This document shows positions 16,982 through 26,505 of a DNA stretch of 58,277 bases, piece by piece. Below the pieces are notes generated by a model. It was given only the letters and a program-made list of their open reading frames with translations. It searched no databases and was not told the origin of the DNA. A program made the position numbers and the translations under genes. This DNA comes from Schwartzia sp. (in: firmicutes) (lineage in GTDB: Bacteria; Bacillota; Negativicutes; Selenomonadales; Selenomonadaceae), in assembly GCA_017444395.1 (NCBI GenBank), contig JAFSWT010000034.1, positions 1-58,277 on the forward strand, written 5' to 3'. Numbering within the stretch: the first letter of the stretch is position 1; every line of letters begins with the position of its first letter.

Positions 16982-19573
16982 TCAGCCGGCGGGATTGGCT
17001 TCCTTTGCCACTTTTTCGTAGAGCGCCATGACCTCTTCATGGTGCTCTTTTATGTAGGCGAGGCTTTCCTCTTTTTCCGCGCCGGTGGCCTCGGGGGACT
17101 GGACCTTTTTCCCCGCGAGTTCCAGGGCTTTTGCCGCTTCGGAAAGCTCCTGGCAGCCAATCGTCAGGGACGTGGATTTCAGGCCGTGGACCTGTACGGT
17201 GTAGCTTCGCCATTCTTCGGCGTCAAATGCCTTTTGGATCTTTTCCCGTTTTTCCGCCTGGGAGGAAGCGAACAGGGAAAGAACCGCATCGTACATATCC
17301 TCCATGCCGCCGTTGTAGCGAAGCCCCAGGGAGCGGTCGATATACCCGCCGTCTTTCCGCGGGGCGCTTTCCTCCGCCGGGGGAGGCGCCGCGTTTCGGG
17401 CGGCGGTTTCCGGTTCCGTAGAGATGGGCTGCACCAGGTTCTGCGGCAGGTAATGCCTGATGAGCTGCTCCAGCTTTTCGGGCGCAATCGGTTTTGACAT
17501 GTAGTCGGAAAAACCTTCGCCGAGGAACATTTCCCTGGCGTCGGATACGGCGTTGGCGGTGAGGGCGATGAAGGGGGTTTCCCGGCACTTGTTGCCGGGG
17601 AGCGCCCAGGAGGCCTTCAGCGTCTCGATGCCGTCCATGCCGGGCATCATGTGGTCCAGGAGGACGATATCATAATGCGCTTCGGCAATCATCTGAAGGC
17701 ACTCTTCGCCGCTCAGGCAGGTGGTGACGTTGATTTCCGTCGCTTTCAGGAGATTCTTCACCACCAGGAGGTTCGTGTCGTTGTCGTCGACTACCAGGAT
17801 GCGGGCGTCCGGCGCCCGGAAGGATACCCGGTAGACGCCGCTCTCGGCAGCCGGTTCTCCGGCTGCTTTACGCAGCGGGAATTCCCCGATCACCGAATCG
17901 GGATTGGCTACCTTCTGCGGAATCTCGACCCGGAACGTGCTGCCCTCGCCATAAACGCTGTCGACGTGAATCTCGCCGTCCATCATCGACAGGAGGTTCA
18001 TCGTGATGGCAAGCCCGAGCCCCGTTCCTTCGACGCTGCGGTTTTTCACCATGTCGAGCCGCTCGAAGCCCCGGAACAGACGATCTTTGTCCTCCTCCTT
18101 TATGCCGATGCCGGTATCCGCTACCGCGATTTTCAGGATGAGATCGTCTTCGCCGGCGGATTCCCCGGAAACGGAAAAGGTAATGCTGCCCTTCGGGGTG
18201 TATTTCACGGCGTTGGAGAGGAGGTTTATGAGTATCTGGCGGATGCGTACCTCATCGCCGTAAAGCGCATTGGGGAGGGTGCTGCGCACCTCGGTGCGAA
18301 ATTCCAGTCCCTTTTCCGCCGCCCGCGGCGTGATGATGTCCAGCGTCTCGCTGAGCAGGGTGTCCAGCTTGTAGTTCGTCTCCACCAGCTCCATGCGGCC
18401 GGACTCGATCTTCGAGAAATCCAGGATGTCGTTGATGAGCGAAAGGAGTGCGTGCCCGGCCCCGGCGATGTTCCGTGCGTATCCGCGGATATCCGGCTCA
18501 TGGCTTTCCCGGAGGATCATCTCGTTCATGCCGAGCACCGTGTTGATCGGCGTCCGGATCTCGTGGCTCATGCTGGCGAGGAAGTCGCTTTTGGCGCGGT
18601 TGGCCTTGTCGGCGATTTCCTTGGCTTCCCGGAGCGCTTCGCTCTCCGCGGCGCGGCTTTGCATCAGGAAGAGATAGATGCTGGCCACGGCGAAGAGGGC
18701 CAGGAGCAGCGACACCACCATGAGCACCAGGTCATAAATGCGCGAGATTCCGCCGGCGGTGGCTTCCCAGGGGACATAGCCCACCATGGAGCAGTTCGTC
18801 TGCGGCAGGTCGGCGCCAAAGAGGAAGTATTTGCCCATAGGGCCTTCAGAGTAAACGGCAGCGGCCTTCCGGGTCTGGAGTTTCTGCCGGAGCGTGGCGA
18901 AGTCCCTCTTTATCGTTGCGTCCCGGAAAAAATCCTGGCCGCTTTCCCCAAAGTCCGCGTAGGGGACGATGACGCTGCCGCCGCGCTCGCGGAGCAGGAT
19001 GCGGCTGTCGGAGCCGTATTCGGCCAGGCCGAACTTTTCCGGGAGGAGTTTCTCCGTGTAAAGGCGATAGAGGACATAGCGCACGTTTTTCTCGTTTTCC
19101 GGGGAAAAGACGGGGACGGCGAAAATCAGTCCGCGCCCCTCCGAATAGTCCACGATCCGCCGCCCGGCGAACGCATCCCGTAGCAGCCGGAAGTCATGCT
19201 GGTTGATCTCGGCTCCCATGACGCGCCCGTACTCCTTCGAGATCAGCCCGCAGACAATGCCTTCCCGCCGGGCATCCACGGTGGAAAGGGCGGATTCCAG
19301 GCGGTCGGGATTTTTTTCCATGAATTTCGCTGCCTGGGTGAGTTCCGTGAGCTCCCGGTTGAACCGTTCCTCGGCAATCAGGGAGAAGTCGGCCGTCTGC
19401 CGGGCGATGGACTGCTCGGTGAGGGAGTTCAGGAGCGCGTTCATCTTCCCCTGCATCAATACGCCGATGACCACCAGTACCAGCGCCAGCAGGAAAAACT
19501 CCGCCGCCACCCTCGTGGTGAGCCCGTAGTCGGAGGACATGATCTGTTTTTTCCAGCCCCGGACTTCATTCAA
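16982..19573 (-). CDS. Hybrid sensor histidine kinase with REC and HPt domains
   Basis: An 863-residue membrane kinase. Two membrane helices (about 22-41 and 281-304) enclose a sensor domain of about 240 residues on the outer face. HisKA follows, with H337 in SMSHEIRTP, then HATPase with N-, G1- and G2-type boxes (SNAVKYTPKG, VADTGIGI, GTGLGL). A receiver domain has its phospho-Asp in IVLLDHMMPGMDG, and a C-terminal HPt domain has its His in VHGLKSTS. This is a full phosphorelay in one chain, needing only an output regulator, which the HD-GYP gene of the same operon can supply. TTG at 19573 is used: GGGGGT lies 9 nt upstream and the codon overlaps the stop of the preceding gene (TTGAATGA). 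Confidence 0.92.
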   Translation of the reverse strand: MNEVRGWKKQIMSSDYGLTTRVAAEFFLLALVLVVIGVLMQGKMNALLNSLTEQSIARQTADFSLIAEERFNRELTELTQAAKFMEKNPDRLESALSTVDARREGIVCGLISKEYGRVMGAEINQHDFRLLRDAFAGRRIVDYSEGRGLIFAVPVFSPENEKNVRYVLYRLYTEKLLPEKFGLAEYGSDSRILLRERGGSVIVPYADFGESGQDFFRDATIKRDFATLRQKLQTRKAAAVYSEGPMGKYFLFGADLPQTNCSMVGYVPWEATAGGISRIYDLVLMVVSLLLALFAVASIYLFLMQSRAAESEALREAKEIADKANRAKSDFLASMSHEIRTPINTVLGMNEMILRESHEPDIRGYARNIAGAGHALLSLINDILDFSKIESGRMELVETNYKLDTLLSETLDIITPRAAEKGLEFRTEVRSTLPNALYGDEVRIRQILINLLSNAVKYTPKGSITFSVSGESAGEDDLILKIAVADTGIGIKEEDKDRLFRGFERLDMVKNRSVEGTGLGLAITMNLLSMMDGEIHVDSVYGEGSTFRVEIPQKVANPDSVIGEFPLRKAAGEPAAESGVYRVSFRAPDARILVVDDNDTNLLVVKNLLKATEINVTTCLSGEECLQMIAEAHYDIVLLDHMMPGMDGIETLKASWALPGNKCRETPFIALTANAVSDAREMFLGEGFSDYMSKPIAPEKLEQLIRHYLPQNLVQPISTEPETAARNAAPPPAEESAPRKDGGYIDRSLGLRYNGGMEDMYDAVLSLFASSQAEKREKIQKAFDAEEWRSYTVQVHGLKSTSLTIGCQELSEAAKALELAGKKVQSPEATGAEKEESLAYIKEHHEEVMALYEKVAKEANPAG

Positions 19574-20654
19574 GCACTTCGACCCCCTTCGCCAGCCAGT
19601 TCACATGTTCCAGCAGGATATCGTCACTCAATGATTCGCCGCGCCCGCAGCGGAGATTTCCCTGATTGTCGTAAATCTCCCCGGAGAATATCATGAATCC
19701 GTCCTCCAGGTCACGCTGGGCCCGTTCCACATTTTTCCGCATGTATTCCGTCACGTTGCTGGAATAATCGGTCAGATAGACCGCGTCCTTCTCGATTCCC
19801 ACCCAGTGCACCGGTTCGCGGTTCAGTTCCCCTTTCAGGTAGCGGTGCACGATGTCGGTATAATACGCTTCCCAGCGGCAGACCACCGAGGTGAGATAAT
19901 GCGGGGAATAGCCGGAAAGTGCCTCGTGGTAGCCGATGAAATCAACGCCGTTTTCCTCCGCTACATCCGCCACGGCATGCTGGTTCTGATGATAGGTGAG
20001 CACATCCGCGCCGACCGCGATCAGGCGCCTGGCGTTGACCTTCTCCGTCTCGGCGTCCTCCCATCGCCCGGTGAAAGCGACCAGGACTTTCGCCTCCGGG
20101 TTCACCCGCTGCACCCCCAGGGCAAAGGCGTTGATGCCGCGGTTGACCTCGGAGTTCCCCATCGCCGCCACATAGCCGATGAGGTTGGATTGGGTGCGCA
20201 AGCCGGCAATGATGCCGGAAAGGTAGCGCCCCTGATAGAGCCGGACGAAATTGGCGGTCATGTTTCTGGTGATGATTTCCGCGGAAGTAGTGCAAAAAGC
20301 GATGCGCGGGTATTCTTCGGTGTAATAGACCGCTTCTTTGGGATATCCGTAGCTGGTAAGATAGATCAGGCCCGCGCCCGCCTTTGCCAGCTCTTGTATC
20401 ACTTTCGGGCATTCGCCGGTGTTTTCCTGGATGTTTTCCCGCACCAGCAACTTTGCCCCCATTTTATCGGCAACGCTTTTCATCGCCGCGTAATGCTTGC
20501 CGTTCCACCCCGAATCATGCGCCGACCCTGACAGCATGAAGCCGATGATCAGGGGATCCTCCTGGGTTGCGTTGTCGAACATGAAGATCGTCCCGAATAT
20601 GGCAAAAAGCAACAGCGCGCCGATGACGAGCAGGAAATTCCCGTTCTTAATCAA
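19566..20654 (-). CDS. Membrane-anchored BMP/PnrA-like binding protein 2
   Basis: A 362-residue protein of the basic-membrane-protein family (type I periplasmic binding fold), whose characterised members bind purine nucleosides. The N-terminal helix (about 5-25) has no lipobox Cys, so it looks like an uncleaved anchor. Family landmarks include GSAHDSGWNGKHYAAM, RLYQGRYLSGIIAGL, IGYVAAM and NRGINAFALG. It is a clear paralogue of the preceding gene. The start is taken as TTG at 20654, six bases after GGGGGTGG and overlapping the upstream stop (TTGATTAA); a TTG at 20675 is also in frame. No ABC permease or ATPase is nearby, so a sensory rather than transport role is inferred. Confidence 0.82.
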   Translation of the reverse strand: MIKNGNFLLVIGALLLFAIFGTIFMFDNATQEDPLIIGFMLSGSAHDSGWNGKHYAAMKSVADKMGAKLLVRENIQENTGECPKVIQELAKAGAGLIYLTSYGYPKEAVYYTEEYPRIAFCTTSAEIITRNMTANFVRLYQGRYLSGIIAGLRTQSNLIGYVAAMGNSEVNRGINAFALGVQRVNPEAKVLVAFTGRWEDAETEKVNARRLIAVGADVLTYHQNQHAVADVAEENGVDFIGYHEALSGYSPHYLTSVVCRWEAYYTDIVHRYLKGELNREPVHWVGIEKDAVYLTDYSSNVTEYMRKNVERAQRDLEDGFMIFSGEIYDNQGNLRCGRGESLSDDILLEHVNWLAKGVEVLE

Positions 20655-21750
20655 GGGTAACCACCCCCTGTACAAGCCAATCCATATGATTCAGCAGAGC
20701 GTCGTCACTAATGGTCTCTCCCTCCCGGCAGCGCAGGTTTCCTTCCCGGTCGTAGAGGATGCCGGAAAAAATCGGCTCCTGGCCGCTGCCGAGCCGCTGC
20801 CGTACCTGCCGCAGGAAAGACCGCTCCTCGTGCGTGACTTTGCGCGAGTACTCCGCCAGTCCCACAGCGTCCCGGTCCATGCCGATCCAACTGTTGCGGA
20901 GGGAGCTGAGCTCCCCTTTCAGGTACCGGCGCAGGATGTCTTCATAGTATATGTCCCAGTGACAGACGATAGAGGTCAGATTGTGTTCCGAGTAGCCGGT
21001 CAGGACCTCATTGTAGCCGATGAAATCCACGCCAGCCGCTTCCGCCGCGTCAGGCACGGCTTTCTCGTCCTGATGATAGGTGAGGATATCGGCCCCGGCT
21101 TCCTTTATGAGCCGCCGGGCCTTTTCTTTCTCTACCGCCGGATTTGCCCAGTCCCCGGTCCAGGCGACGACCACCCGCACCCCGGGATTCATCTTCCGCG
21201 CACCGATGGTGAAAGCGTTCAGCCCGCGGCAGACTTCATCGTTCGGGATTGCTGCCACATAGCCGATGACGCCGGATTTCGTCTTCATCCCCGCCAGCAC
21301 GCCTGCCAGATAGCGCCCCTGGTACATCCGGACAAAGCAGGAGGTGAGGTTTCGGGCGCGCGTTTCGAAGGAAACCGTGGCAAAGGCGATGTCCTTGTAT
21401 TCTTTCATTACGTCCTTGGCCTCAGCGGCATAAGCGTAGCTGCAAAGGAATATCATGCCCACATTTTCTCCGGCGAGCTCACGGATAGCCTCTGGGCACT
21501 GGCCGCTGTTGTCTTCCACCCGGTCGCGGACCAAAAGGGTGAGTCCCAGTTTCTCGCAGGCGCTCTTTATACCCTGGTAATGGGAAGCGTTCCATCCCGG
21601 TTCCTGGATGTCGCCCAGGATGACGAAGCCGACTTTTTTCGGCGCCTCCTGGGGCAAGAGGTCCGTATCGAAACGGTAGATCATGAAGGTGATAAGGGTA
21701 AGCAGGCACAGTCCTACCCCGAGCAGGACGCTCGTTCTGGCGCTTTTCAT
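20647..21750 (-). CDS. Membrane-anchored BMP/PnrA-like binding protein 1
   Basis: A 367-residue paralogue of the next gene. An N-terminal hydrophobic helix (about 7-27) lacks a lipobox, and the BMP fold follows with DIQEPGWNASHYQGI, RMYQGRYLAGVLAGM, IGYVAAIPNDEVCRGLNAF and DILTYHQDE. BMP/PnrA proteins elsewhere are lipoprotein receptors for nucleoside ABC importers; here the partner gene is a hybrid kinase. ATG at 21750 overlaps the regulator stop (ATGA). The ligand is not known, and purine nucleosides are only the family precedent. Confidence 0.82.
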   Translation of the reverse strand: MKSARTSVLLGVGLCLLTLITFMIYRFDTDLLPQEAPKKVGFVILGDIQEPGWNASHYQGIKSACEKLGLTLLVRDRVEDNSGQCPEAIRELAGENVGMIFLCSYAYAAEAKDVMKEYKDIAFATVSFETRARNLTSCFVRMYQGRYLAGVLAGMKTKSGVIGYVAAIPNDEVCRGLNAFTIGARKMNPGVRVVVAWTGDWANPAVEKEKARRLIKEAGADILTYHQDEKAVPDAAEAAGVDFIGYNEVLTGYSEHNLTSIVCHWDIYYEDILRRYLKGELSSLRNSWIGMDRDAVGLAEYSRKVTHEERSFLRQVRQRLGSGQEPIFSGILYDREGNLRCREGETISDDALLNHMDWLVQGVVTLD

Positions 21751-22802
21751 CCCTTGCCCCCACCGCGGTCACGCATGCGGTACTCTTTGTCCTCGTCAAT
21801 CATTGAGAGCATGATATCGGCAAACGCCGGATCGAACTGGGTGCCCCGGCCGCGTTCAATCTCGGCGCGCACCCGTTCCTGCGCCATCACGTTGCGGTAA
21901 CTCCGGTTGCTCGTCATGGCGTCGTAAGCGTCCGCTACGGCGATGACTCTTGCTTCCATCGGGATATCGTCGCCGCGCAGTCCGTCCGGATAGCCCCTGC
22001 CATCGTAGCGTTCGTGATGGGAGCGGGCACCGATGGAGAGGGCGGGGAAATGGACGATGCTCTTCAGGATATCGGAACCGATGGTGGTATGCGTCTTTAT
22101 GACGCCAAACTCCTCATCGGTCAGCCTGTCGGTCTTGTTGATGATGGATTCCGGCACGCCAATCTTACCGATGTCATGCAAGAGCCCCATGAAATAGATA
22201 TCCCTCACCTCGGCGTCCGCCATGCCGGCACGGCTGGCTATGGTACGGGAATACTCGGCTACGCGCCGTGAGTGGTCCTGGGTGTACCTGTCCTTGGCGT
22301 CGATGGTCTTGGCCAGCGCCAGCACAGTCTCAGCGAACAGCCGCTGGTTTTCTTCCATCTGCTCTCTGACCTGCTCGGTCTGCCGCGCCACTTCCTGTTG
22401 AAGATTGCGCTTCAGGTATTCGTTTTCCAGGACGCGCCGGGTACGCTCCCGAAGAATGTCCGGAACGAAGGGTTTCCGGATGAAGTCGGAGGCCCCGGCG
22501 CGGAACATCTCCGTTTCCAGCTCCACGCTGGTTTCCGCCGTCAGGATGATCACCGGGATGTTTTGCGTTTCCGCTTTCTGCTTCATCGATTTCAGCACCT
22601 CGATGCCGTCGATGTCCGGCAGGTTATAGTCCAGCAACGCCATATCCACGCGCTCGGCGGTCAGGAATCGCAACGCGTCTTCGCCACATTCCGCCGACGC
22701 GACCTCGACGTCGTTCCCCAGGATTTTCCCAATCATGAACAGGTTGATTTCCTCGTCGTCCACAGCAAGGATACGGGGCTTTTTCTCCAGATCGAAAAGC
22801 AT
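21747..22802 (-). CDS. HD-GYP response regulator (probable cyclic-di-GMP phosphodiesterase)
   Basis: A 351-residue regulator. The REC domain (about 10-125) has the acidic pair VDDEE, phospho-Asp D58 in ALLDYNLPDIDG, and the T/K switch in ILTAE and IRKPF. After a coiled linker comes an HD-GYP domain with HDIGKIGVPESI and the diagnostic HHERYDGRGYPDGL; metal ligands look intact. Such proteins hydrolyse cyclic-di-GMP to pGpG or GMP. ATG at 22802 is preferred to ATG 22811 because GAGAGAGG then lies 9 nt upstream. It is the first gene of the four-gene operon and the likely acceptor of phosphate from the hybrid kinase's HPt domain. Confidence 0.92.
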   Translation of the reverse strand: MLFDLEKKPRILAVDDEEINLFMIGKILGNDVEVASAECGEDALRFLTAERVDMALLDYNLPDIDGIEVLKSMKQKAETQNIPVIILTAETSVELETEMFRAGASDFIRKPFVPDILRERTRRVLENEYLKRNLQQEVARQTEQVREQMEENQRLFAETVLALAKTIDAKDRYTQDHSRRVAEYSRTIASRAGMADAEVRDIYFMGLLHDIGKIGVPESIINKTDRLTDEEFGVIKTHTTIGSDILKSIVHFPALSIGARSHHERYDGRGYPDGLRGDDIPMEARVIAVADAYDAMTSNRSYRNVMAQERVRAEIERGRGTQFDPAFADIMLSMIDEDKEYRMRDRGGGKG

Positions 22803-22842
22803 GACCAACATCCTCTCTCATACCATTCTGTTTTCTGGTTCC

Positions 22843-22880: not shown

Positions 22881-22911
22881 AAAAAGTGTCGGGATTTTCC
22901 AAAAAGTGTCG
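22881..22911 (+). promoter_or_regulatory. 11-bp direct repeat between two divergent promoters
   Basis: AAAAAGTGTCG occurs at 22881-22891 and again at 22901-22911, an exact repeat with a 20-bp period (two helical turns). It ends 6 bp before the plus-strand -35 and begins 10 bp from the minus-strand -35. Tandem sites in such positions are typical for activators, including LytTR regulators, one of which is encoded in the plus operon. Confidence 0.65.
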
Positions 22912-22917
22912 CATTTT

Positions 22918-22945
22918 TTGACCGGATTTTGTGGTAAGCTATAGT
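22918..22945 (+). promoter_or_regulatory. Promoter of the AgrC-like pair and LytTR operon
   Basis: TTGACC (22918-22923), 16-bp spacer, TATAGT (22940-22945). The leader is about 28 nt. Confidence 0.7.
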
Positions 22946-22979: not shown

Positions 22980-24335
22980 ATGAATCATTTCGTGGCGGAT
23001 GTGCTGCCGGGGGTGGCACTCCCTTTCTGCGTGGTTTTGATACAGCTGGCCGATTCGTATTTAAGATACCTGGCTTTCCGGCAACAGATACGCCGGGAGG
23101 AGACGCAACGTCTCCGGGTTGCGTTCGGACTGTGGGCCGTGACCAGTTTCCTGCTATATGCCGCATGGTTCCGGTATGCCGGCATCGCCGCCCAAACGTG
23201 CAAAATCGCATTGATGGCGGGCTGGGTTCCCTGGCTGGTGATCTTCATGGGGACTGTGCGCCGGGACACGCTCAGCCATATCTTCATTCAGGGGATGGTC
23301 GCCGTCTGGAGCCTCATGCTTCACAGCATATCCTCCATCGTTGTGGTCGTTGCCTTCGCCGATTTGGCGGAAGCCAACTTCCTTACGGCGCACACCGCGA
23401 TTTATTTGTTGCTGTTCCTGCTGCTTCTGCCGGGGGAATGCCGGGTATTTCACGATATGCTTCCGCTGCGGCAGTTTTTCGCCTCCCGTCCGGCCGGCTA
23501 CTATGTTGCGGCGATGCCGTTTGTCGTGCTCTTTTCCCATTTTTTCCTGTGGGCGGACAGTTCGCTGTTTCACACCTGGCAGGAACGGCTCTCGCGTCTG
23601 GCGTTGCCCGTGGCGTTTTTCTTCATGTATAAGCACGTACTCTTATCGGCCAGTGAGTTCTACAACCAGCAAAAGGCAGGTCTTGACGCCAAGCGCGCCG
23701 GAGCCCGGATCGCTTTCCTGGAGGAACGCTGCCGGCTGGCGGCAAGGACCCAGAAGCAGACAGCCATCATTCGTCATGACCTCCGCCATAATTTCCGCAT
23801 CCTGTATGAACTGATCTCGAAGGGAAAGACGGAGGCAGCACTGTCCCATATCAATACCCAGACGGTATTGCTCGATACCCTCGGCACCCCGTCATTTGCC
23901 AAAGGCTCTTTTCTGAACGCGGCCATATCCGTGCATCTTTGGCGGGCGGAACAGCTGGGGATAAAAATCCGGCAAAAAGTGAAAATCCCGGCAAAGCCGT
24001 TTCGGGCCGAGCAAGACCTGACACTCCTGATCTCGGAGCTTTTGGATGAGGCCATCCATGCCTCGGCCAGAGAACCGGAGGGCGCACGGGCACTTTCCCT
24101 GGCGCTGGTCTCGGACGGCTGCCAGTGGCTACTGTCCGTCGGGAATCGCGCCGGGGCGCCTTTACCGGTTGGCCGGGACGGATTGCCGCTCCGGGAAGAG
24201 GGATCGGCGCTGTCGCTGTTTTTGGAAAAATACGGTGGGGAATTGGATTTTTCTTACGCAGATGGCTGTAACAAATACGAGATTTTGTGGTATGATGATG
24301 AAAGAGAGAATGGAGAGGAGGCACTTTCATGCTGA
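22980..24335 (+). CDS. AgrC-like sensor protein with phosphoacceptor His but degenerate ATP-binding domain
   Basis: A 451-residue membrane protein: six or so hydrophobic helices in residues 1-225, a coiled region, then a GHKL-kinase-like C-terminus. The H-box is intact (IIRHDLRHNFRIL, H266). The ATP-binding part is damaged: the N-box reads ISELLDEAIHAS, with E357 where the Mg-binding Asn belongs, and the G-box is missing through a 6-residue gap (GLPLREEGSALSLFLEKYG). It should accept a phosphate but not bind ATP well. It is a paralogue of the next gene, which has the opposite defects. ATG at 22980 follows GAGGTG; the overlap with the next gene is 7 nt. Confidence 0.85.
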   Translation: MNHFVADVLPGVALPFCVVLIQLADSYLRYLAFRQQIRREETQRLRVAFGLWAVTSFLLYAAWFRYAGIAAQTCKIALMAGWVPWLVIFMGTVRRDTLSHIFIQGMVAVWSLMLHSISSIVVVVAFADLAEANFLTAHTAIYLLLFLLLLPGECRVFHDMLPLRQFFASRPAGYYVAAMPFVVLFSHFFLWADSSLFHTWQERLSRLALPVAFFFMYKHVLLSASEFYNQQKAGLDAKRAGARIAFLEERCRLAARTQKQTAIIRHDLRHNFRILYELISKGKTEAALSHINTQTVLLDTLGTPSFAKGSFLNAAISVHLWRAEQLGIKIRQKVKIPAKPFRAEQDLTLLISELLDEAIHASAREPEGARALSLALVSDGCQWLLSVGNRAGAPLPVGRDGLPLREEGSALSLFLEKYGGELDFSYADGCNKYEILWYDDERENGEEALSC

Positions 24336-25657
24336 CGCTCCTGCCCCTCTCGTTCTGCCATATGCTGATGCAGCTTGGCGGGGCGTATCTCCGGTATCTG
24401 CCCTTCCGGCAGCACATGGAAAAAGAGGATATCCGGCTGCTTTGGCGGTGGATAGCCCTGTGGAGCACGGTTTCCCTTTTCCTCTGTGCCTTCCTCTTTT
24501 CCTGGTCGTCCCTGGATGTCGCCGTGTACAAGCTCGTGTTATTCTTTGCCCCGGTTCCCTATATCCTGCTCTCCTTCGTGGCCATAAAGCAGCCGTTGGC
24601 CGTACATCTCTTTGTGATGGGGATGCAATTCCTCTGGGCGGTCGCGATTCACACCGCGGTTGCCTTCGGGGAGAATTTCCTGCCGGTTGACATTCCGGAG
24701 ACGTATATCCTGTTCTTGCATCCCCTGTTATACTTGTTGCTGTTCCTCATCGTACTGCCGGTATCAAGGCGGCTTTTCTCGAACCTTTTGCCATCGCTCC
24801 GCCTCATCGAGGACAGGGGCCTGGCCGGGAAGGTTTCTATCTCATTGCTGCCGCTGGTCATATTCATCGGGTTTTCTCTGCCCATCGCCGATGCCGAGGC
24901 GCTCCACAGCGTTCAGGTACAGCTCTCCCGCATCTCGATTCCCGTCTTCTTCTTCCTGATGTACCGCGGTATGAGCCTGGCAACAAAGAAAACCGATGAC
25001 CGGCGGCAGGCTGAGAACGCGGCCCGCATGATGGAGGAGCAGCTCGCCGCGCTGGGGGAATACGAAAGGATGCTCGGCGAGAGCCAAAAGGAGACGATGC
25101 TTCTCGTCGGGAAAATCCGGGAGGACTACGGGCGGCTGAAGGACTATCTCGCATCCGGCGACGCCGCAGGCGCACTGGCGCTGATACGCGACCGGGAAGA
25201 CCGGCTGAACAAAACGACGGTCCAGGCATACAGCCCCTATCCCATATTGAACGCGGCGCTCTCTGTCTATATCGGCCGGGCGGAGGCGCTGGGGATTCCC
25301 GTCGAATGCAGCGTGAGCCTCTCCTCGAAGCTCCGGGTCGATGAACATGAGTTCTCCATCGTATTGTCCAATTTGCTGGAAAACGCGATTGAGGCCGCGA
25401 AGGAGGCGCCGGAGGGAGCGCGCGCCATTTCTGTCGGCATCCGGCACCGCGCCAAAGCCGTTGTGATGGAGATTGTCAATCCATCCGTGAAGCCACTCGT
25501 CCTGGATGAAAAGGGCTTGCCGGTGACCAGCCGGAAAGGGCACGGCCTCGGCATGGCGTCCCTTTCGGCCTTTCTGGAAAAGTACGGGGCTTACGCGGAC
25601 TTCACCCAGGAAAATGACCAGGTACGCTTCGCCATGTATTGGGAGGGAGAGAATTGA
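24329..25657 (+). CDS. AgrC-like sensor protein with intact ATP-binding domain but no phosphoacceptor His
   Basis: A 442-residue membrane protein with the same layout as its upstream paralogue (six or so helices, coiled region, GHKL domain). The N-box LSNLLENAIEAA (N352) and G-box KGHGLGMASL (G404, G406, G408) are intact. The H-box position reads TMLLVGKIREDYGRL: aligned through the shared QK-x-T and R residues, G261 replaces the His and K262 the Asp. It should bind ATP but cannot carry the phosphate itself. GAGGAGG precedes the ATG, which lies inside the end of the upstream gene. The stop overlaps the LytTR start (TTGA). Confidence 0.87.
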   Translation: MLTLLPLSFCHMLMQLGGAYLRYLPFRQHMEKEDIRLLWRWIALWSTVSLFLCAFLFSWSSLDVAVYKLVLFFAPVPYILLSFVAIKQPLAVHLFVMGMQFLWAVAIHTAVAFGENFLPVDIPETYILFLHPLLYLLLFLIVLPVSRRLFSNLLPSLRLIEDRGLAGKVSISLLPLVIFIGFSLPIADAEALHSVQVQLSRISIPVFFFLMYRGMSLATKKTDDRRQAENAARMMEEQLAALGEYERMLGESQKETMLLVGKIREDYGRLKDYLASGDAAGALALIRDREDRLNKTTVQAYSPYPILNAALSVYIGRAEALGIPVECSVSLSSKLRVDEHEFSIVLSNLLENAIEAAKEAPEGARAISVGIRHRAKAVVMEIVNPSVKPLVLDEKGLPVTSRKGHGLGMASLSAFLEKYGAYADFTQENDQVRFAMYWEGEN

Positions 25658-26452: not shown

Positions 26453-26505
26453 AAAAAACCTCCTGTTACCGCTACTTTTGGTAACAGGAGGTTCTTTATT
26501 GTCTT
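26453..26505. terminator. Strong bidirectional terminator between the LytTR gene and sucD
   Basis: A perfect 14-bp stem AACCTCCTGTTACC (26457-26470)/GGTAACAGGAGGTT (26480-26493) with a 9-nt loop. T-rich sequence follows on the plus strand, and seven T follow on the minus strand, so it ends both operons. Confidence 0.9.

Follow-up and report, generated by a model that had tools for sequence, protein, structure and literature searches.

Adjacent AgrC-like membrane proteins with complementary defects in Schwartzia and other Negativicutes: a probable split histidine kinase

In a 58,277-nt stretch of DNA from Schwartzia sp. (contig JAFSWT010000034.1, referred to here as the window), two adjacent AgrC-like membrane proteins, A and B, very probably act as the subunits of one split AgrC-class kinase, in which phosphate would pass from B to A and then to a LytTR response regulator. 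Taken as a whole, we regard this as the best explanation of the data. An earlier note on this DNA had put forward a split, heteromeric kinase working by trans-phosphorylation; this is still the best-supported reading, now on comparative evidence that is far stronger than what the window alone provides, with phosphotransfer itself being inferred.

The genes for A, B and a REC-LytTR response regulator form a three-gene operon (Table 1), in which the TTG start of the regulator gene overlaps the stop codon of B. Recomputing the motifs from the sequence reproduced every defect described in the earlier note: A carries H266 within RHDLRH, has E357 at the N-box Asn position and has lost its G-box through a 6-residue deletion, and B has G261-K262 in place of His-Asp, together with N352 and GHGLGM. 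The 7-nt overlap between the two frames (ATGCTGA) was likewise as reported. The Pfam GHKL ATPase model (HATPase_c_5 type) scores 45.6 bits in B, exceeding the cut-off, whereas in A it reaches 11.6 bits against a cut-off of 22; this sub-threshold score is consistent with a predicted loss of ATPase function in A. The AlphaFold models of A and B (pLDDT 86.5 and 88.1, respectively) are both helical in their N-terminal half and contain a long DHp helix (residues 200-280 in A, 195-276 in B). By profile (E 3.8e-5) and also by fold, the closest solved structure is AgrC of Staphylococcus aureus (PDB 6e52, 6e95 and 4bxi), its kinase module (6e52) being the best PDB fold match for A. The regulator shows both of its domains (REC, E 8e-15; LytTR, E 1e-11) and Asp62 is present. 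The features of an AgrC-like (HPK10) system are thus found here, namely a GHKL domain of the HATPase_c_5 type (in B), a polytopic membrane region leading into a long DHp helix, and a LytTR regulator, with the exception of a complete kinase on one chain. Phosphoacceptor and ATPase lie on different proteins, which is what defines a split kinase.

Table 1. Positions of the A-B-regulator operon and its motifs in the window.
Feature	Position	Strand	Remarks
Direct repeat of 18 nt, spacing 20, AAAAAGTGTCG	22881..22918	+	Putative site of the LytTR regulator (no binding data)
Promoter-like TTGACC-16-TATAGT of the three-gene operon	22918..22945	+	10/12 consensus matches; consensus match only
Protein A, 451 aa	22980..24335	+	Multi-pass membrane region, DHp helix with phosphoacceptor, degenerate GHKL domain
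His266 codon (RHDLRH)	23775..23777	+	Predicted phosphoacceptor; motif recomputed
Glu357 codon, N-box Asn position	24048..24050	+	G-box deleted further downstream
Overlap of reading frames A and B, 7 nt	24329..24335	+	Identical 7-nt overlap in many relative pairs
Protein B, 442 aa	24329..25657	+	Membrane region, DHp helix without His, intact GHKL ATPase
Gly261-Lys262 codons replacing His-Asp	25109..25114	+	Motif recomputed
Asn352 codon, N-box NLLENA	25382..25384	+	Motif recomputed
G-box GHGLGM, residues 404-409	25538..25555	+	Conserved in ATPase-only partners
Response regulator, REC + LytTR, 243 aa	25654..26385	+	TTG start; Asp62
Terminator-like hairpin	26457..26493	+	After the regulator gene

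Relatives matched in 123 of 189 Selenomonadaceae genomes, with more in other families of the class; about 120 loci were read, and the His, N-box and G-box were scored on one alignment. Among single-gene relatives from Selenomonadaceae and two other Negativicutes families, all 70 carry the His, the N-box and the G-box, four apparent exceptions being either contig-edge halves of pairs or the distant pair in genome G012 described below. The complete tandem pairs number 55, a set from which we excluded three pairs cut by contig ends and one locus (G119:C39) where a single kinase is broken by a stop. The earlier note had suggested looking for the same complementary pair in related genomes, and such pairs are common: 44 of the 55 are strictly complementary, one protein having the His without the ATPase motifs and the other the ATPase motifs without the His, and four more are nearly so, with a weakened G-box (48/55 in total). 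We take this pattern to exceed chance. The counts overstate independence and do not represent 55 separate events, because the pairs are related to each other. The strict pairs cover seven genera of Selenomonadaceae and one genus in each of two other families.

Three architectures were observed. Some pairs, like that of the window, consist of two full-length proteins with point defects; in others the ATPase partner is full-length and the His partner, at about 295 aa, stops behind the DHp helices; in the third type, again with a full-length ATPase partner, the His partner is reduced to about 100 aa, comprising one membrane helix and the His hairpin. The short His partner may be encoded by the first or the second gene, so that both orders exist. 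In many pairs the whole ATPase domain is physically gone from the His partner while the other partner retains it. In G012, a 298-aa His protein (MLRHDLRHYC) adjoins a 465-aa ATPase protein without the His and a LytTR gene; this very distant pair seems to be a case of its own. None of the short or degenerate His-only halves scanned gave a Pfam match above the cut-off.

Complementarity does not hold in seven of the 55 pairs. The His is absent from both proteins in G003:C25 (L063) and G126 (L145), which might reflect decay, a His partner borrowed from elsewhere or a function other than that of a kinase. In G211 (L190), which the tree places closest to the window pair, both partners have the His and both G-boxes are damaged. 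In G162 and G019 (L101 and L066/L067) the first protein lacks the His and the N-box Asn, and the second looks complete (HE, N, GRGVGM). According to the earlier note, homologues in which one partner has both an intact His and intact ATP-binding boxes would refute the split kinase; such partners do occur, in G028, G070:C140, G162 and G061, although most pairs are complementary. As these cases show at the level of sequence, not all members of the group are obligately split. We read the whole-looking partners as intermediates, given the predominance of complementary pairs and a tree (described below) that indicates duplication followed by reciprocal loss. Separately, at two loci from another family (L318 and L320, in G333 and G337), the frame of one partner is broken into pieces.

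The pattern of conservation follows the division of roles. Over 13 H-box positions the mean entropy was 2.55 bits in ATPase partners, whereas singles had 1.08 and His partners 0.81; by this measure the constraint on the H-box is lost in ATPase partners only. In the ATPase-only partners the N-box Asn is conserved in 100% and the G-box Gly residues in 96-100%, and in the His-only partners the R, H, D, R and H of the RHDLRH motif are 100% conserved. For orthologous pairs from two genera, dN/dS was mostly between 0.08 and 0.23 for both partners, truncated ones included. These values come from a simple counting method, with dS near saturation in the wider comparisons, and no relative of the window pair is close enough for its own dN/dS. 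By these estimates both partners of the orthologous pairs are under purifying selection and, as a group, are not pseudogenes.

These data bear on the possibility that A and B represent a duplicate in decay, or a pair of pseudokinases with only a regulatory role, phosphate being delivered by another kinase. The same genome as the window does encode a candidate, an intact single-gene relative with its own divergent LytTR gene (G000:C134; L076, 4769-6145); a few pairs have no His in either partner; and ChrS provides a precedent for a catalytically dead kinase able to act via its paralogue (PMC9491836). Against this, the frames are long and intact, selection on orthologous pairs is purifying as described, conservation is specific to motifs, and complementarity extends to many genera. 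Moreover, in some genomes, of which G022, G112 and G115 are examples, the two pair members are the only relatives above the threshold, and the missing part is therefore not supplied by any single relative there. We thus reject pseudogene decay, on the basis of intact frames, low dN/dS in orthologous pairs and motif-specific conservation, and we also reject rescue by an intact paralogue as a general explanation, given the genomes that have the pair as sole member; what is left of this alternative we consider very improbable. Artefacts of assembly or alignment deserve mention for a window genome that is fragmented (163 contigs, 79% complete), but the same pattern recurs in the isolates Anaerovibrio lipolyticus DSM 3074, Anaerovibrio sp. 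RM50 and JC8, and whole domains are absent; A. lipolyticus DSM 3074 encodes a 297-aa as well as a 106-aa His partner. This recurrence refutes an artefact for the group, and for the reading overall we give it practically no weight.

A phylogenetic tree was built on the membrane and DHp region after removal of the H-box columns. First genes (A) and second genes (B) fall apart on it with support values of 98/97 and 99/96, matching the gene order. Mapped on this tree, the roles switch from one lineage to another. In the window, G210 and genus g13, A carries the His and B the ATPase; Anaerovibrio (g22), G003:C7 and the G112/G115/G149 group show the opposite assignment. In approximately unbiased (AU) tests, uniting every His partner in one clade was rejected (p = 1.7e-4), and so was uniting every ATPase partner (p 4e-82). 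The simplest history would be one tandem duplication followed by reciprocal loss that was resolved in opposite directions, and A and B of the window would derive from such a duplication and complementary loss. The g11 pairs, the g52 pairs and the full-length g33 pairs look like further cases. With moderate confidence, we favour the broader view that an ancestral AgrC-class tandem pair was resolved repeatedly, in opposite directions in sister lineages, with more cases, separate from these, in other families. If this is true, splitting is a recurrent, ratchet-like end point for AgrC-class kinases, and it yields natural heterodimers in which one subunit can be reduced to a single membrane helix and a His hairpin.

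Upstream of the operon, the 18-nt direct repeat abuts the promoter-like sequence, and its core, AAAGTG-N14-AAAGTG, is found upstream of 23 of 52 pair loci against none of 58 single-kinase genes. The core occurs 53 times in 834 kb of locus sequence, compared with about 0.1 expected from simple base counting at equal base frequencies, and some of these occurrences lie near regulator genes of single kinases. In twelve whole genomes it far exceeds a reversed-pattern control, and in the window's genome it occurs once, at the A-B-regulator operon. The conserved repeat is probably the site of the LytTR regulator, with DNA binding inferred. Of 54 pair loci, 37 have a LytTR regulator gene no more than 700 nt away; for the other 17 none was present within that distance in the stretch read, some stretches ending at a contig end.

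Further occurrences of the core (L264-L281) include many in one Anaerovibrio genome (G066, 11 sites), and some of them precede a U32-like peptidase gene; extensions of the core by ATGG or GTCG seem linked to different pair types. The genes behind the sites, recognised by eye, include this peptidase, a cytochrome bd-like protein and nuclease-like proteins. In the genomes looked at no coherent gene set was found behind the sites, and we therefore claim no regulon. As to the surroundings, the operon is bounded by the terminator-like site after the regulator gene and by another system upstream. The latter is divergent (16982-22811, minus strand) and encodes a hybrid kinase (HisKA, HATPase, REC, Hpt), two Bmp/PnrA-like binding proteins and a REC-HD protein. 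At G003:C25, and partly at G019 and G162, the kinase pair lies within a similar cluster, with no nearby LytTR gene.

AgrC autophosphorylates in trans within its dimer, and a split of the type of A and B would therefore be easy. In the mechanism we infer, for which there is no biochemistry, A would pair with B, most likely as a heterodimer held through the membrane and DHp helices; the GHKL domain of B would bind ATP and phosphorylate His266 of A in trans; from A, the phosphate would move on to the co-transcribed LytTR regulator (at Asp62), which would probably bind the 20-nt-spaced direct repeat and control its own operon. The system resembles AgrC in being a multi-pass membrane receptor with a LytTR-type regulator. 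It differs in that AgrC is a single complete protein acting as a homodimer, and neither A nor B has all the motifs. AgrC also has a peptide signal encoded alongside; no peptide gene of the AgrB/AgrD kind was noticed in the A-B-regulator operon, without a dedicated search.

The earlier note knew of no case of such a division in the membrane AgrC class, a statement now outdated by FasB/FasC of Streptococcus pyogenes (PMC12675982, October 2025); A and B are therefore not the first split in the AgrC-like class. FasB and FasC are encoded side by side; both are kinase-like membrane proteins, predicted to have six membrane helices, with a DHp and a HATPase domain, and they act with the ComE-like regulator FasA. 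His246 of FasC is required, a FasC fragment of residues 1-286 without the kinase domain suffices, and FasB provides the kinase domain; the two proteins pair in two-hybrid assays with no self-pairing, and genetic evidence is also available (PMC12675982). As adjacent membrane kinase-like proteins with a regulator, they are a close experimental parallel, with no data on common descent. FasC retains its HATPase domain, whereas many Negativicutes His partners have lost it from the gene, and so the FasC 1-286 truncation has, by predicted domain content, been made repeatedly by nature in these pairs. The present pairs further differ from FasB/FasC in covering three families of another class, in having the roles both ways round and in partners down to about 100 aa. 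As far as tested, four things are new: the entire ATPase domain has been lost naturally, the His partner can be of minimal size, the split is broadly distributed, and its roles occur in reversed form; no paper on the Negativicutes pairs was found in the literature searched, most subscription papers being outside its scope.

Split kinases, CheA3/CheA4 among others, are also described outside the AgrC-like class. In CheA3/CheA4 of Rhodobacter sphaeroides, the phosphoacceptor and the ATPase are on two proteins, neither of which is active alone (PMC3591291), the same division as in A and B; these are soluble chemotaxis CheA proteins with a separate P1 domain, in contrast with the membrane AgrC class of A and B. 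Hik36/Hik43 of Synechocystis, a split CheA termed a split histidine kinase, consists of two interacting proteins (PMC7656254); it differs in being of the CheA type and in having genes far apart, A and B being adjacent. The CheA3/CheA4 contact is transient, between the catalytic domain of one protein and the phosphoacceptor domain of the other (PMC3591291), and raises the alternative that a B homodimer phosphorylates an A homodimer as its substrate, with no obligate heterodimer. This arrangement is indistinguishable from a heterodimer by sequence alone. We nevertheless judge it unlikely: in the His partners the DHp helix is complete and the membrane region often is too, a DHp helix without the His persists in the ATPase partners, and FasB and FasC associated with each other and not with themselves (PMC12675982).

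Membrane sensor kinases are usually treated as homodimers; many of the species studied here appear to need two different subunits. The pairs constitute a natural series that runs from point defects to total domain loss, with the roles swapped between lineages. This series allows tests of heterodimer formation, of signalling with one active site per dimer and of the combination of two membrane inputs, as well as of the switch-like behaviour that theory predicts for split kinases (PMC3591291). His-only halves of such kinases may, at present, be overlooked by annotation.
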